From NCBI RefSeq assembly GCF_014270065.1, contig NZ_JACNME010000004.1, positions 186,001 to 250,000 on the forward strand: a DNA stretch of 64,000 nucleotides. The letters run 5' to 3'. This stretch comes from Quadrisphaera sp. RL12-1S. Lineage in GTDB: Bacteria; Actinomycetota; Actinomycetes; Actinomycetales; Quadrisphaeraceae. The notes beneath the pieces are model-generated. The model was given only the letters and a program-made list of their open reading frames with translations. It ran no database searches and was not told where the DNA came from. Both the position numbers and the translations under genes were made by a program. How positions within the stretch are numbered: the first letter of the stretch is position 1; each line of letters opens with the position of its first letter. Shown here one piece after another: positions 13,379 through 48,688 of the stretch.

Positions 13379-14089
13379 TCACTCGAAGCCGGCGCTCACG
13401 GTGACGGTGCCGGGGGCCACCTCGGTGTAGCCGGCGTCGCGGACGTCCACCCGCCGCGACGCCGGCAGCACCGGCGCCCCCTGGACGACGACGACGGCGA
13501 GGCCCGTGGCCACGTCGGGCTCGGCGCCGGCCAGCCACGCGGCGACGGCGGCGCGGTCGAGGCGCTCCAGCGCGAGCTGCGCCGCGTGACCGACCTGCGC
13601 GACGGCCTTGCCGGTGCTCATGGCCACGCCCGGCGCCAGCCGGACGGTGAGCACCGGCTGCCTCGGCGGGCGGGTGGCCGACTGCCCATGATCACGGAGA
13701 GGGGGGTCGGGGTCGGTGAGCTCCAGGCCGCCGACCTGCAGGTCGCGCAGCACCGTCGGGGCGTCGTCGCGCGGGTGCGGAGCGAACGCCCTGACCTGGG
13801 CGGACCCCGAGCGCGCCTCGACGTGGGGCAGGTCGGCCGTGCGCTCCCACCGCGAGCCGCGCGCGCGACGACCGATCTTGCGGATCCGCTGGCCGCGCCA
13901 CCGGGCCACGGCGTCGTGGAAGGCGCCTTCGGGGTCGGTGGTGCGCTCGTCGACCAGCAGGGCGACGACGGCGCGGGCCGCGGAGACCAGCACGTCGGTG
14001 TGCGCCGGAGGCGCGTCCCGCTCGACCCTGACGACCAGCGAGAGCGCCCACGGCTCCTCCTCCGGCGGCAGCCAGGTGGGCTCGCTCAC
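13379..14089 (-). CDS. Pth2-type peptidyl-tRNA hydrolase-like protein
   Basis: A 236-residue protein. The C-terminal half carries a Pth2-like core, [20 protein letters not shown] followed by [11 protein letters not shown], with the Lys and His arrangement of the archaeal-type enzyme. The N-terminal half ([20 protein letters not shown]) is a conserved actinobacterial extension. The variable linker between them, around residues 129-140, is encoded by a copy of the CCATGATCACGG repeat (13672-13697) and reads [15 protein letters not shown] 14089 overlaps the kynU stop as GTGA, so it is the second gene of a kynU operon. Bacteria normally use the unrelated Pth1. Confidence 0.8.
13672..13697. repeat. 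repeat family B copy inside the Pth2-like gene
   Basis: GGGTGGCCGACTGCCCATGATCACGG differs from the intergenic copy at 33511-33535 only by one extra base in the GAC-GCCC junction. It ends in the family core CCATGATCACGG. It is in frame in the Pth2-like gene and codes part of a variable linker. Confidence 0.8.
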
Positions 14090-33510: not shown

Positions 33511-33535
33511 GGGTGGCCGACGCCCATGATCACGG
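33511..33535. repeat. repeat family B, intergenic copy
   Basis: GGGTGGCCGACGCCCATGATCACGG lies between divergent DUF1232 and CLC genes. It is nearly identical to the copy inside the Pth2-like gene at 13672. Confidence 0.8.
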
Positions 33536-41256: not shown

Positions 41257-43110
<1,854 letters not shown>

Positions 43111-43123
43111 CCCTCCCCTCCGT

Positions 43124-43183
43124 CCGTGATCATGGACTTCCCGAGCACTTTCCCGCCGTGATCATGGACCTCCCGAACACCCG
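43124..43183. repeat. repeat family B, two tandem copies (left flank)
   Basis: Two units begin CCGTGATCATGGAC at 43124 and 43156 and continue CTTCCCGAGCACTTTCC, with a 32-base period. They are in the reverse orientation to the pair at 44175-44237, so the gene between is bracketed by inverted repeats. Confidence 0.88.
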
Positions 43184-43235
43184 TTCCTGTGGACGGTCGG
43201 AGCGGGGGTAGCGCGATCTTCGCAAGGCTGCACCG

Positions 43236-44177
43236 GTGCCCCAGGTGCCGCGCATCCTCGCCCCGACGTCGCTGCTGCCCCCGTTCCGGCGGGCTGACCT
43301 TCCGTCACTGGGGCTCGACCCCCGCTGGCTCGACGGGGCGCTGGCGGCCGGCTTCGTCGTCCAGGTGAACCGGGGCGCCTACCTCGACGCTCGGCTGCTC
43401 GGCGACCCGCTCGCCGTCGCCCAGGCCTCGGCGCTCGTCCTGCCGCCGCACGTGGTCCGGTGCCGAGCCACCGCGGCGATGATCCACGGGGTCGACCCGC
43501 GCGGCCCGGCGCTGGACACCTCCCCGGTACCGCTCCAGGGCCTGGTGCCGGCCACCAACCGCACCCCGAAGTGGCGCGGAGCGTCGATCTTCGAGGCGCC
43601 GCTGGCCCCGCACGACGTCATGGAGGTCGGCGGGGTGCTCGTCACCACCCCGGAGCGCACGGCGCTGGACTGCGCCCGCTACCTGAGCCCGCCGATGGCG
43701 CTGGCGGTGCTGGACCGCATGGCCGGGCTGGGCCTGGTCGACCCCGAGGTGCTGCGGGTGCGCATCGAGGAGTTCAAGGGCGACCGCGGAGTGGGGCAGG
43801 CGCGCTACCTCATCGTCCACATCGAGGCGGATGCTGAGTCCTACGGAGAGTCCTGGTTCCGGCTGCGGCTGCTGGACGCTGGGTTCCCGCGCCCCGACGT
43901 GCAGATCTGGGTCCCAGAGCAGAGACCTGGCGCGATGCGGCTGGACCTGGGGTGGGAGGCGCTGCGCAAGGCTGGGGAGTACGACGGGGAGGAGTTCCAC
44001 TCCTCGCGGGAGCAGCAGGACGCCGATGACGCCCGGCGCGAGCGGCTGGAGCGGGAGTTCGGCTGGCGGGTGCTGCCGGCGCGCAAGGGCGCCGTGCTGG
44101 GGCGGTCGCTGGAGCTGGAGCTCGCGTTCGGTGAACTGCTGGGGATGGCACCGAGGATCCGCACCCGTGCCTGGTGA
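43236..44177 (+). CDS. AbiEi antitoxin-like protein fused to a DUF559/Vsr-like nuclease domain
   Basis: A 313-residue protein. The N-terminal half is a winged-helix-like AbiEi region: LGLDPRWLDGALAAGFVVQV, NRGAYLD, and the GVLVTTPERTALDCARYLSP block. The C-terminal half from about residue 198 has ESYGESWFRLRLLDAGFPRP, MRLDLGWEALRKAGEYDGEE and ERLEREFGWRVL, the layout of DUF559 with its PD-(D/E)xK-type residues (Glu, Asp and Glu). The stop codon TGA lies within the right-hand repeat. It may be one half of a defence or toxin-antitoxin module, or a domesticated single gene. Confidence 0.8.
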   Translation: MPQVPRILAPTSLLPPFRRADLPSLGLDPRWLDGALAAGFVVQVNRGAYLDARLLGDPLAVAQASALVLPPHVVRCRATAAMIHGVDPRGPALDTSPVPLQGLVPATNRTPKWRGASIFEAPLAPHDVMEVGGVLVTTPERTALDCARYLSPPMALAVLDRMAGLGLVDPEVLRVRIEEFKGDRGVGQARYLIVHIEADAESYGESWFRLRLLDAGFPRPDVQIWVPEQRPGAMRLDLGWEALRKAGEYDGEEFHSSREQQDADDARRERLEREFGWRVLPARKGAVLGRSLELELAFGELLGMAPRIRTRAW

Positions 44178-44237
44178 AAGTGCTTGGCAAGTCCATGATC
44201 ACGGGGGGAAAGTGCTTCGGACGTCCATGATCACGGA
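44175..44237. repeat. repeat family B, two tandem copies (right flank)
   Basis: Two units with GAAAGTGCTTGGCAAGTCC and GAAAGTGCTTCGGACGTCC, each ending CCATGATCACGG. They are inverted relative to the left-flank pair. The first supplies the stop codon of the AbiEi-DUF559 gene, and the second ends 12 bases before the next gene's stop. Confidence 0.88.
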
Positions 44238-44248
44238 GGGGGTGGGGG

Positions 44249-46327
44249 CTAGGAGGCGCGGCGGCTGCCGGACGAGCCGTTGCGGGCGCGCAGGTAGTCG
44301 GAGACCACGTACTCCCCGAGCCGGTCCAGCGAGGGCGCGAACACCCGACCCCCGTTGCGCCGAGCCATCGCGTCGGCGAAGCGCCGCAGGCCCGGGTCCT
44401 CGCCCAGCAGGAACGTGTTGATCGCCACGCGCGAGCGGGTCATGGCGTCGACCTCGCCGACCGTCCGGCGCAGCGTCTCCGGGGACGTCGGCCAGTCGAA
44501 CCACGCCTCGCCGTCGTCGTCGAGGTGGGCGGTCGGCTCCCCGTCGGTGACCACCAGGACGATCGGCTGCGCGTCCGGGTGCCGTGAGACGTGGCGTCGC
44601 GCCAGCGCGAGGGCGTGCTGGAGGTTGGTGCCCTGGATCCAGGCCGGCTCGACGGCGGCCAGCTCGGCGGTGGACATCGTCCGCGCGGTCCTGTCGAACC
44701 CGATGATCTCGAACGCGTCGTTCGGGTGCTGCGTGGCCACGAGGTGCGCCAGCGCCATCGCCGTCTGCTTCATCGGCGCCCAGCGGTCCTCGGCGTACAT
44801 CGACCACGACAGGTCCACGCACAGCGCCACGGCCGCGCTGGAGCGCCGCTCGGTCTCGGCCACCGCGAAGTCCTCCGGGAGCAGCCGCACCCCCCTCTGC
44901 TGAGCCGACGACGACGGCGAGCGCGTCGCCGCCGAGCGCATGACGGCCCGGCGCACCGTGGCGACGGCGTCGAGGGGCTGCTCGTCACCGAACTGCCACT
45001 CGCGCCAGGTGCCCGTGGCCTCTCCGGCCGCACCGGCGGAGCGCTCGTCGTGCGAGCCCCGTCGTGACGACTCGAGGTCGGCGAAGACCCGGCGCAGCGC
45101 GGTCTGCCCGAGCCGGCGCAGCGCCTTGGGCGACAGCTGCAGCTGGCTGGCCGGCCCGGTCAGCCAGCCCTGCTTCTTGAGCTCGCGCTCCAGCTCGGCC
45201 AGGCGCCGCAGCTGGTTGGCGGCACCGGTGCCGAGCTGGCGCTCGACGGCCTCGACGTCGACGTCGTCGAGACCCTGCCCCGGACCGTCCATGGCGAGCT
45301 GGTCGTCGAGGTCGTCCAGGTCCGCCAGTTCGGCGAGCGCGCCGGTGGCGTCGTCCATCCCCAGCGGCTGGGAGCCGTTGAAGCTCTCCCGGCCCCGCCC
45401 GCGCACGAAGGCGCCGGGGCGCAGGTCCTGCAGGTGCTGGTTGAGCGCGCTGACCTCGGCCTCCAGCCCGGCGTCGGCCATGGCCTGCGCCATGAGCTGC
45501 TGCAGCTGGCTGCGCTCCTCCTTGGACAGGGACCGCATGAGCCGCTGCATGGCGGCAGCGCGCTGCGCGAGGGCGTCGAGCAGCTCGTCGACGTCCTTCG
45601 GGTCCTCGGGGAACGCGTCGCCGTGCTTGGCCATGAACTCGGCGAACTGCTCGGTGGTGTCCTCACCGCGCTCGTGGGCGGCGAGCAGGGCGTTGAGGTC
45701 GCCGAGGAGCTCCTTGACGCCCTCCATCGACTGACCGGACTGGCCCTGGCCGCCCTCGCCCTGCTGCCCCATCTGGCCGAGCCCGGGGATCTGGGCCCTC
45801 AGCGCCTGCTGGCGCAGGTCGTCGAGGAGCTCCTCGTAGGTCTGCTGCGCGGCGGGGGAGGTCCACTCGTAGTCGGCGAGCTCCCGCACCGCGGCGGCCG
45901 TGCGGCGGGGGAGCGCGTCGAGCTGGGCGTGGGCGAGCGCCGCCTCGCTGGCGTCGGCCCCGGCCCCCTCCTCGCCGGCTGACTCGCGCTCGGCCGCCTC
46001 GGCGGCCTTCTGGTCCAGCGCGGCGCGCTCCGTGGTCAGCGCCTGCTCGAGCTTCTCCCGCGCCTGCTGCAGCGACCCGGCCAGGTCGCCGGAGGAGCGC
46101 AGCTGCTCGCGCCGCCGCCGGACCCGCTCGCGCAGGGCGTCCAGCCCCTCCCGCCGCCCCCGCTCGTCCTCGAGGCCGTTGCGCAGCAGGTCGCGCAGGG
46201 CCTCCTGCAGCGACCGACCCTGCATGACGTCCCGCCCGATCGCGTCGACGGCGGCGCGCACGTCGTACGGAGGGGCGAGCGGGTCCGCGCCGCCGTCCCA
46301 CGCGCCGTACCGGTAGGCCCTGCTCAT
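44249..46327 (-). CDS. VWA domain protein, partner of a MoxR-type ATPase
   Basis: A 692-residue protein. The N-terminal 400 residues are helical, acidic and Gln-rich, with coiled-coil segments such as DALRERVRRRREQLRSSGDL. The C-terminal third is a von Willebrand A domain with the MIDAS motif in CVDLSWSMYAEDRW (DxSxS), TDGEPTAH and the Thr of IQGTNLQHAL. The pair of a VWA protein and an AAA+ ATPase acts as a chelatase or chaperone in known systems such as CoxD/E and RavA-ViaA. The target here is unknown. ATG 46327 follows GAGGGGGACGCG, 46 bases after the ATPase gene. Confidence 0.88.
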   Translation of the reverse strand: MSRAYRYGAWDGGADPLAPPYDVRAAVDAIGRDVMQGRSLQEALRDLLRNGLEDERGRREGLDALRERVRRRREQLRSSGDLAGSLQQAREKLEQALTTERAALDQKAAEAAERESAGEEGAGADASEAALAHAQLDALPRRTAAAVRELADYEWTSPAAQQTYEELLDDLRQQALRAQIPGLGQMGQQGEGGQGQSGQSMEGVKELLGDLNALLAAHERGEDTTEQFAEFMAKHGDAFPEDPKDVDELLDALAQRAAAMQRLMRSLSKEERSQLQQLMAQAMADAGLEAEVSALNQHLQDLRPGAFVRGRGRESFNGSQPLGMDDATGALAELADLDDLDDQLAMDGPGQGLDDVDVEAVERQLGTGAANQLRRLAELERELKKQGWLTGPASQLQLSPKALRRLGQTALRRVFADLESSRRGSHDERSAGAAGEATGTWREWQFGDEQPLDAVATVRRAVMRSAATRSPSSSAQQRGVRLLPEDFAVAETERRSSAAVALCVDLSWSMYAEDRWAPMKQTAMALAHLVATQHPNDAFEIIGFDRTARTMSTAELAAVEPAWIQGTNLQHALALARRHVSRHPDAQPIVLVVTDGEPTAHLDDDGEAWFDWPTSPETLRRTVGEVDAMTRSRVAINTFLLGEDPGLRRFADAMARRNGGRVFAPSLDRLGEYVVSDYLRARNGSSGSRRAS

Positions 46328-46373
46328 CGCGTCCCCCTCGCAGCCCGTGCCACCGTCGTCGTCGAGAGCTCTC

Positions 46374-47828
46374 TCAGCCGCCGTAGACGGCGCGGTCGCC
46401 GTGGCCGTCGCTGCCGGCCTCGACGTCCTTGGCCAGCCGGCGCGTGAGGTGCAGGCCCTCGAGGACCATCTCCACCCCCGAGGCGGCCTGCCCGGGCGTC
46501 GGGGCCTCCGGCAGGTCGAGGCGCGCCAGCACGCGTGCGAGCCCCTCGACCCTGCCGATCTGCGACAGCAGCTCGGCACTGCTCACCAGCTCGCCGGTGA
46601 AGACCGTGCCGCCCTCGGCCACCAGCGTGGTGAAGCCCGAGAGGTCGGCGCCGCCGAGCCGCGCCCGGAAGACCTCCGCCACGGCCGTGCGGAGCAGGTG
46701 CACCAGCACCTCCTCCTCGCGGCCCTCCTCGCCGGACTCGAACTCGACCTTGCCGCGCAGCGTCGGCACCACGCCGTACGCGTCGCCCACGCGGGCCACC
46801 GGCTCGTCGCCCGTGAGCGCCGCGCGCCGCAGGGCAGCGCCGGACAGCGTCTCGGCGGCGGCCACGGCGAAGCGCGCCGAGACCCCCGAGCGGGCGTCGA
46901 CGGCCGGAGACTCGCGCACCGCCCGCGTGAACCGGGCGACCACCTCGAGCAGGTGGCGGGGCACGTCGGCCACCAGCCGGGCCTCCTGCGCCACGAGCTC
47001 CACCTCGAGGTCGACGTCGAGCGGGTAGTGCGTGCGCACCTCGGCCCCGAACCGGTCCTTGAGCGGCGTGATGATCCGGCCGCGGTTGGTGTAGTCCTCG
47101 GGGTTGGCGCTGGCCACCACGAGCACGTCCAGCGGCAGGCGCAGCGTGTAGCCGCGCACCTGCACGTCGCGCTCCTCGAGCACGTTGAGCAGTGAGACCT
47201 GGATGCGCTCGGCGAGGTCGGGCAGCTCGTTGACGGCGAAGATCCCGCGGTGCGTGCGGGGGACCAGGCCGAAGTGGATGGTCTCGGGGTCGCCCAGGGT
47301 GCGGCCCTCGGCGATGCGGACGGGGTCGACGTCGCCGATGAGGTCGCCGACGGACGTGTCCGGGGTGGCCAGCTTCTCGGCGTACCGCTCGGAGCGGTGC
47401 CGCCAGCTCACCGGCAGGTCGTCACCCAGCTCGCGCGCCCGCCGGGCCGAGGCCGGCGTGATGGGCTCGAGGGGGTGCTCGCCCAGCTCGGAGCCCTCGA
47501 TGACCGGCGTCCACTCGTCGAGCAGCGCCACGAGGGAGCGGATGAGGCGGGTCTTGCCCTGGCCGCGCTCGCCGAGGAGCACGAGGTCGTGCCCGGCGAG
47601 CAGGGCCCGCTCCACCTCGGGCAGCACCGTGTCGTCGAAGCCGACGACGCCGGGGAAGCGGGGCTCACCGGCGCGCATGCGGGCCAGGAGGTTCTCGCGC
47701 AGCTCGGCCTTGACCGAGCGGGGCTCGGCCTGCGGCAGGCCGCTGGCGCGCAGGGCGCCGAGCGTGGTCGGCAGGTCGTCGGGGAAGGAGCTGAGGACGG
47801 ACGTCGACGGTGTCGCGCTACCAGTCAC
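46374..47828 (-). CDS. MoxR/Mg-chelatase-like AAA+ ATPase
   Basis: A 484-residue ATPase. Walker A is LLGERGQGKTRLIRSLV, Walker B is GIFAVNELPDLAERIQ, sensor 1 is VVASANPEDYTNRG and the arginine finger region is ITPLKDRFGAEV. A C-terminal extension of about 170 residues follows the lid. It heads the two-gene unit with the VWA protein. GTG 47828 is chosen because TAGCGT lies six bases before it; GTG 47831 is also possible. Its upstream region is bounded by repeat B copies. Confidence 0.9.
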   Translation of the reverse strand: MTGSATPSTSVLSSFPDDLPTTLGALRASGLPQAEPRSVKAELRENLLARMRAGEPRFPGVVGFDDTVLPEVERALLAGHDLVLLGERGQGKTRLIRSLVALLDEWTPVIEGSELGEHPLEPITPASARRARELGDDLPVSWRHRSERYAEKLATPDTSVGDLIGDVDPVRIAEGRTLGDPETIHFGLVPRTHRGIFAVNELPDLAERIQVSLLNVLEERDVQVRGYTLRLPLDVLVVASANPEDYTNRGRIITPLKDRFGAEVRTHYPLDVDLEVELVAQEARLVADVPRHLLEVVARFTRAVRESPAVDARSGVSARFAVAAAETLSGAALRRAALTGDEPVARVGDAYGVVPTLRGKVEFESGEEGREEEVLVHLLRTAVAEVFRARLGGADLSGFTTLVAEGGTVFTGELVSSAELLSQIGRVEGLARVLARLDLPEAPTPGQAASGVEMVLEGLHLTRRLAKDVEAGSDGHGDRAVYGG

Positions 47829-47834
47829 CACCTC

Positions 47835-47840
47835 ACGCTA
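47835..47840 (-). promoter_or_regulatory. -10 element of leaderless MoxR-VWA operon
   Basis: TAGCGT on the minus strand, with GTG codons three and six bases downstream. The arrangement copies the GTGGTG starts of kynU and pdxT. Confidence 0.5.
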
Positions 47841-47885
47841 CGTCCGGATCGTCCCGAGCGCGCCACCCCGGACCCCACCCCCGAT

Positions 47886-47968
47886 CGTGATCATGGGCTT
47901 CCCGAGCGGCGGTGCGCGGGAAGCCCATGATCACGGCCGGAAAGTGCTTCGGAAGTCCATGATCACGG
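47886..47968. repeat. repeat family B, triple copy with 18-bp stem
   Basis: CGTGATCATGGGCTTCCC (47886-47903) is the exact reverse complement of 47919-47936, with a 15-base loop. A third unit, GGAAAGTGCTTCGGAAGTCC followed by ATGATCACGG, ends at 47968. It lies between the divergent MoxR and dienelactone hydrolase genes. Confidence 0.88.
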
Positions 47969-48010
47969 ACGGGAGGGGTGGGTGTCGGCGGCACGTGCTG
48001 GGATGTGGGG

Positions 48011-48688
48011 GTGAGCGAGCAGAACGTCGAGTTCCCCAGCGGTGACGGCACGGCCCACGGCTACCTCGAGCTCCCGCCCGGGGGCTCGGGCCCGGGGCTC
48101 GTGGTCATCCAGGAGTGGTGGGGCCTCACCACGCACATCGCCGACCTCACCCGGCGCTTCGCCGCCGAGGGGTTCGTGGCTCTCGCGCCCGACCTGTACG
48201 GCGGCGCCACCACGCACGACGGCGCGGAGGCGATGCGCCTCATGCAGGAGCTGCCCGTCGACAGGGCCGCCCGCGACCTCGCCGGCGCCGTCGACCACCT
48301 GCTCGGGCGCCCCGAGGTCACCTCGGGCACGGTCGGCGTGGTCGGCTTCTGCATGGGCGGCTCCTTCGTGCTGACGCTGGCCGCCCAGCAGGGCGAGCGC
48401 GTCAGCGCCGCCGTCCCCTTCTACGGCCTGCCCGACCTCGACGCCACGGACTACTCCGGCCTGCGCGCCGCCGTGCAGGGCCACTACGCCACCCGCGACC
48501 GCATCACGCGCGAGGCCGTCGAGGCCACCGCCGCGAAGATCCGCGAGCAGTCCGGCGTCCAGGCCGACGTGCGCTTCTACGAGGCCGACCACGCCTTCGT
48601 CAACGACGAGCGCCCCTCCTACGACGAGGCCTCCGCCACGGCCGCCTGGGCCGCCGCCGTCGCGTTTCTGAAGGAGCACGTCCGCTGA
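48011..48688 (+). CDS. dienelactone hydrolase family protein
   Basis: A 225-residue alpha/beta hydrolase. The nucleophile elbow is [16 protein letters not shown], with Cys as in classic dienelactone hydrolase. [20 protein letters not shown] is the family's N-terminal signature, and the His is in [14 protein letters not shown]. The Asp of the triad is likely in the strand before it. The natural substrate is unknown. GTG 48011 is the start of homology. It ends one base before rarA. Confidence 0.92.

Follow-up and report, generated by a model that had tools for sequence, protein, structure and literature searches.

A nuclease-like gene between inverted arrays of a dispersed short-repeat family in Quadrisphaera

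The locus and its predicted product

The 64,000-nt stretch of DNA analysed here (the window) belongs to a 4.62-Mb draft genome of the genus Quadrisphaera, designated G000, and carries a gene for a 313-aa protein between two arms of inverted tandem repeat units (Table 1). The left arm directly adjoins the stop codon of aspS on its 3′ side, and the right arm abuts the stop codon of a converging VWA-type gene. That the tandem pairs on the two sides face opposite ways, as a first-pass annotation of this DNA had described, is confirmed by their coordinates and by the 83% complementarity of the wider arms (43112-43180 against 44180-44248) across 69 nt. Its claim that the right-hand pair supplies the stop codon of the gene was also borne out, the stop falling within the right-hand array. 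A 119-bp solo element, made of units of the same repeat family and bounded by the termini ACCC...GGGT, is present elsewhere in the window. A search of Rfam gave no matches across positions 42900-48200.

Table 1. Positions of the repeat arms, units and bracketed genes (window coordinates unless a locus is named)
Feature	Position	Strand	Remarks
Left arm	43112..43180	+	C-rich end and two tandem units; cores CGTGATCATGGAC at 43125 and 43157
Left-arm tandem units	43119-43148, 43151-43180	+	32 bp apart
Gene for 313-aa protein	43236..44177	+	AbiEi-like, ~5-197; Vsr/EDxHD-like nuclease fold, ~200-304
Right-arm tandem units	44173-44204, 44205-44236	-	32 bp apart, inward-facing
Right arm	44173..44248	-	Two inward-facing tandem units (44191, 44223) and G-rich end
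Solo (gene-less) element	47865..47983	.	Units + - -; same repeat family as the arms
Single dispersed unit core CGTGATCATGGGC	33522..33534	-	
Bracketed ordinary gene, hisF	L037 7848-8838		
Bracketed ordinary gene, ybaK-like	L049 1279-1962		
Bracketed ordinary gene, sigma-factor-like	L070 2496-3958		
Bracketed gene in Williamsia	L251, L252, L253		FAD-oxidoreductase-like (named by eye); array pairs in three genomes
DUF349-like/rel-type neighbourhood	L138, L139, L140, L144, L149, L154, L157, L158, L162, L163, L176		

The label initially given to the gene, an AbiEi-DUF559 fusion, proved right in kind when judged from a structure model and weak when judged from sequence, since the Pfam matches of the protein to MTES_1575 (E 6e-4) and AbiEi_1 (E 9e-4) both lie under their cut-offs. 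PADLOC models for AbiEi match it with an E-value of 2.5e-7, and Pfam gave no match to the Y1 transposase family PF01797. The structure model, built from 69 sequences, has a pLDDT of 94; residues 5-197 resemble the AbiEi antitoxin (6y8q; Foldseek E 5.6e-5), and the fold of residues 200-304 finds its best match in I-Bth0305I (3r3p, Z 11.3), with Vsr (1cw0) at Z 9.5. Active-site-like residues are kept across 69 homologs (E205 in 68, D237 in all 69, E/D248 in 68, D250 in 67 and H255 in 61), and these conserved acidic and histidine residues form what we take to be the EDxHD motif. The model supports a protein consisting of an AbiEi-like DNA-binding part followed by a Vsr-fold nuclease with putative activity. 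In PMC7319586, AbiEi and Rv2827c are described as binding 23-bp repeats, in pairs or in fours, a site length that would fit one unit per molecule.

Repeat families in Quadrisphaera and around distant homologs

Within the window, GTGATCATGGA occurs 10 times with at most one mismatch, against 0.28 expected, and none of 100 shuffles reached this number. Across G000 there are 74 copies of CGTGATCATGGAC and 197 exact-pattern copies of the unit core CGTGATCATGGRC, the reversed control giving 0 in this genome for both. Counts of CGTGATCATGGRC range from 97 to 295 in five further Quadrisphaera genomes and from 0 to 11 in the other 143 genomes sampled from the order, so that the repeats form a genus-specific dispersed family. 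A CGTGATCATGGGC unit at window positions 13684-13696 lies inside a called coding gene, and may be a genuine insertion into coding sequence or an error of gene calling.

The close clade of the gene (at least 70% identity) comprises nine copies at two loci in five Quadrisphaera genomes, all nine with inward-facing CGTGATCATGG units on their assembled flanks, two copies in G087 being split by contig ends. The named close hits are from Quadrisphaera granulorum, Quadrisphaera sp. INWT6 and “Streptomyces” sp. NP160. The last of these records (L128, NZ_VDMJ01000024.1; L129, NZ_VDMJ01000006.1) shares contigs and gene content with G073, a genome placed by genome search in the genus of the window, and is probably misnamed.

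One half of each Quadrisphaera unit is constant and the other variable, and the types found among dispersed variable halves include those that flank the resident gene in G000, G087 and G101, mainly so in G000. With unit classes drawn by eye, G000 has 73 dispersed variable halves of class I and 9 of class IV among 116, its resident gene flanks being I and IV; G087 has 24 of class II and 23 of class III (47 of 98), with resident flanks II and III; and G101 has 8 of class V among 47, with resident flank V. The distribution of classes I-IV differs between G000 and G087 with p 6e-15. A sizeable share of the dispersed variable halves in G087 and G101 is of types that flank no resident gene (class I, 18/98 and 10/47), which counts against reading the protein as the cognate enzyme of the repeats (see below). 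So do the 122 units of G129, a genome without a homolog of at least 70% identity; G129 shows that the repeat family can persist after loss of the gene or be kept up by other means. Two further paralogs in G000 (L107 = C6 and L108 = C3; ~47-49% identity) have flanking inverted repeats of their own with a different sequence. In the DNA examined, the units of the L108 paralog occur solely beside members of that gene family, which also counts against a cognate enzyme of dispersed repeats.

Beyond the genus, 80 named homolog loci taken from 148 stretches matching a pattern were examined de novo by setting the 400 bp upstream of each gene against the reverse complement of the 400 bp downstream, with a pass at 38 or above, a cut chosen after the shuffle maxima (22-34) were known. 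Inverted flanking repeats were found at 60 of the 80, a set that is not independent (a rel-type gene adjoins 12 of the loci and a DUF349-like gene 11, both named by eye). Only 1 of 139 control intervals taken from those loci passed, and 1 of 117 taken from the window; these controls supersede a null drawn from mixed related loci (maximum 78). Random orientation of the repeats and a lack of related occurrences, either of which the first-pass annotation would have taken as evidence against its picture, were therefore not observed. The 20 loci without a flanking inverted repeat at this cut count against a cognate enzyme. At least two units stand on each side in 40 of the 60 flanked loci, and 136 of 184 unit spacings are 21 or 22 bp; the orientation totals of 308 to 7 are biased because the unit finder penalised wrong-way units. 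Repeat sequence depends on lineage, and distant homologs in other genera are flanked by inverted tandem units of other sequence, such as CGTGATCTTGCAC in G016 and CGTGATCATGCAC in G023. Strict helical phasing was rejected: periods of 21-22 or 31-33 bp predominate, yet spacings of 35-41 bp exist.

Each repeat tested is dispersed in the genome of its gene, and most comparison genomes have few copies of it or none. By exact pattern, the unit of Nocardioides acrostichi has 69 copies, that of a Williamsia MAG 17 and that of G023 76, each with none in seven other genomes. CGTTCGTTGGGC has 75 and 58 copies in the two Williamsia genomes where it flanks the gene, 15 in another genome and 0-2 in the remaining five, while CGTCGAGTGGGC discriminates less cleanly, with 7-101 copies in all eight Williamsia genomes and controls that are low but non-zero. 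We find here the arrangement that characterises REP/RAYT systems, in which inverted copies of a repeat flank a gene and further copies are scattered over its genome, and also a repeat type specific to the enzyme, although this specificity is weak at family scale and not clean for CGTCGAGTGGGC. Over 42 loci, unit similarity tracks protein similarity weakly (rho 0.19), and a recognition code in the N-terminal part was rejected at family scale, since N-terminal, middle and C-terminal identity all correlate equally weakly with unit similarity.

Of the homolog loci at which a gene was called on each side (42), 35 lie between convergent neighbours, in many cases no more than 15 bp from either stop codon; this count, the bracketed ordinary genes of G000 and the placement of arrays after stop codons rest on simple custom gene callers. 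Many of these loci represent one conserved neighbourhood, running from a DUF349-like to a rel-type gene and found from Nocardioidaceae to Motilibacter, at which the homologs retain inverted arrays despite differing unit sequence.

Presence, absence and placement of arrays

Sites empty in relatives, which the first-pass annotation had proposed to look for, do exist. The 119-bp solo element is cleanly missing from G101 and G143, with no target duplication visible at the empty site, and only arm remnants of it are left in G129. The interval between aspS and the VWA-type gene holds the gene in G000, G143, G073 and G087, and solely a hairpin of two facing units in G101. The suggestion that rearrangement between the arms would invert the gene found no example, its orientation being constant at the aspS locus (four genomes) and at the second locus (five).

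The two copies of the gene in G073 (L112 and L113) are almost the same in the C-terminal part, where both carry one frameshift at about codon 140, and differ in their N-terminal part and upstream array, a pattern that fits gene conversion between loci; the copies in G087 are similar as far as their split contigs show. Programmed frameshifting was considered and rejected, as the breaks in several copies fall at differing positions (G143, G129) or at one common position (both copies of G073), for which decay together with gene conversion is the better fit.

Among one-sided arrays away from the gene, those of G000 stand behind a stop codon, in the sense direction, in 30 of 36 cases (28 within 30 bp), against 20/36 for a 3′-side control, and those of N. 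acrostichi do so in 17 of 19 (14 within 30 bp; control 8/19). The bias is absent in G023 (7/14), and the 10/12 seen in Williamsia is not above the control of 9/12; as a general law it was rejected, being true in two of the four genomes examined. Other genes flanked by the same inverted units, a further check proposed by the first-pass annotation, were found in the same genome, among them hisF, a ybaK-like and a sigma-factor-like gene (named by eye), all bracketed by inward-facing units. The tendency of arrays to trail stop codons in sense orientation may account for the bracketing of such ordinary genes. It may equally explain why brackets of ~1 kb failed as a predictor of new nuclease genes, with 0/3 in Williamsia, all three containing one other orthologous gene.

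A candidate repeat-associated enzyme and its relation to known systems

The pairing of gene and repeat is well supported, and we regard it as very probably real. An enzyme that acts on the repeats, spreading or converting them, is the simplest account that we can infer from these comparisons and by analogy with RAYT and REPINs (PMC2817692, PMC3116915), and a reasonably likely one. On this account the AbiEi-like part would bind one unit (~22 bp, or the 32-bp variant) and neighbouring molecules would align along the phased array, placing the Vsr/EDxHD-like nuclease to nick or cut at the array or at a hairpin that two facing arrays would form. Arrays could then spread, be converted and expand in trans, through repair or through copying of an array. 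The gene itself mostly keeps fixed loci between convergent genes, as RAYT genes do, while the repeats turn over fast. Association between gene and repeat is seen directly by comparison of genomes; cleavage and mobilisation are what the sequences suggest would follow.

The arrays could instead be binding sites and nothing more, recognised by a protein regulator of the AbiEi autorepressor type, with the dispersed arrays forming a regulon or 3′-end elements acting on DNA or RNA (termination, mRNA ends) and maintained by selection. AbiEi-type proteins bind tandem and inverted promoter repeats of ~23 bp, according to PMC7319586, and the sense-oriented trailing of stop codons in G000 and N. acrostichi also favours this reading. 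We nevertheless consider it unlikely: mirror-image arrays also stand downstream of the gene, almost every homolog retains the nuclease residues, whole elements are present or absent between species, and the orientation rule is missing in G023 and does not exceed its control in Williamsia. Insertion sequences land in REPs, and by the same token the nuclease gene might land in an independent repeat family, or survive between convergent genes where repeats collect. The predominance of convergent neighbours, the bracketing of other genes and the retention of repeats in G129 without a close gene copy are all in keeping with this; however, the flanking unit is lineage-specific and matches the unit dispersed in that genome, control intervals are almost never bracketed, and inverted arrays are kept at one conserved locus despite differing unit sequence, so that we hold this alternative to be improbable, more so than a regulator.

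Least probable of all, and in our view very doubtful, is a composite element in which the gene is passive cargo moved by an unrelated transposase in trans. The inverted ends and the clean empty site of the solo element speak for it. Against it, the Y1 transposase family (searched as PF01797) was not found in six Quadrisphaera genomes, a control search being positive in 5 of 14 genomes; no target duplication marks the empty site; and 60 of 80 loci, in a set chosen by gene, flank the same gene family and not varied cargo. The composite-element picture of the first-pass annotation accordingly survives in part: the bracketed gene recurs, gene-less repeat sites exist and other genes are bracketed. 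Passive cargo in need of a transposase in trans is the part that is not supported: a nuclease fold and a DNA-binding part are both present in the protein, and its homologs carry repeats of their own, dispersed in every genome in which they were counted.

We thus return to an enzyme acting on its repeats, and suggest that the gene probably encodes the cognate enzyme of a genome-wide short-repeat family, REP/RAYT-like in its organisation but non-homologous. More tentatively, it is possible that such genes constitute a separate class, widespread in Actinobacteria, in which a Vsr-type nuclease with a swappable AbiEi-like guide carries its own phased arrays in trans into the 3′ ends of genes, by copying or conversion. 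The repeat and the part that recognises it would co-diversify, and the catalytic part would be homogenised between gene copies. If this is true, the lifestyle of paired repeat and enzyme would have evolved more than once, with a second, non-homologous solution in another phylum. Many “AbiEi/DUF559 domain” genes that are at present annotated as antitoxins or unknowns would also gain a function, and repeat families of actinobacterial genomes an explanation. The proposal is directly testable, each genome offering a matched enzyme and target sequence.

Among known systems, AbiE toxin-antitoxin modules share the AbiEi fold (residues 5-197) and the ~23-bp repeated binding sites known for AbiEi. They differ in that the protein described here has a C-terminal nuclease part and its repeats lie on both sides of the gene and genome-wide. 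In the window the gene stands between aspS and the VWA-type gene, and no DUF1814 toxin was recognised by eye as its neighbour; at homolog loci, 242 neighbouring proteins fall into 143 clusters. Vsr and the EDxHD homing endonuclease I-Bth0305I (3r3p) resemble residues 200-304 in fold, the latter comparison extending to a stand-alone nuclease of selfish type, whereas here the nuclease is fused to an AbiEi-like part and linked to dispersed repeats and not to an intron, an intein or mismatch repair. A search of the open-access PMC literature, outside which subscription papers and bioRxiv preprints fall, gave no earlier report, and no paper there that mentions DUF559 deals with such repeats, as judged by titles and abstracts.

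REP/RAYT is the main known example of short repeats scattered through a genome together with an enzyme encoded there. By the description of REP/RAYT in PMC2817692 and PMC3116915, the two systems are alike in that inverted repeats, present in tens to hundreds of dispersed copies, flank the gene of the enzyme, each gene has a repeat type of its own, gene-less hairpin doublets exist and the gene keeps a low copy number. The 313-aa protein is not a RAYT, no Y1 transposase having been found in the gene or in the six genomes of the genus: the enzyme here is AbiEi-like with a Vsr/EDxHD-type nuclease fold, in contrast to the HUH Y1 fold of RAYTs, its repeats form tandem arrays with a period of 21-22 or 31-33 bp where REPs are single hairpins with a GTAG-type head, and the system is found in Actinobacteria. 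None of the known systems compared here, with the open-access literature as the basis, pairs a nuclease of this type with dispersed repeats, in an architecture that works like REP/RAYT.
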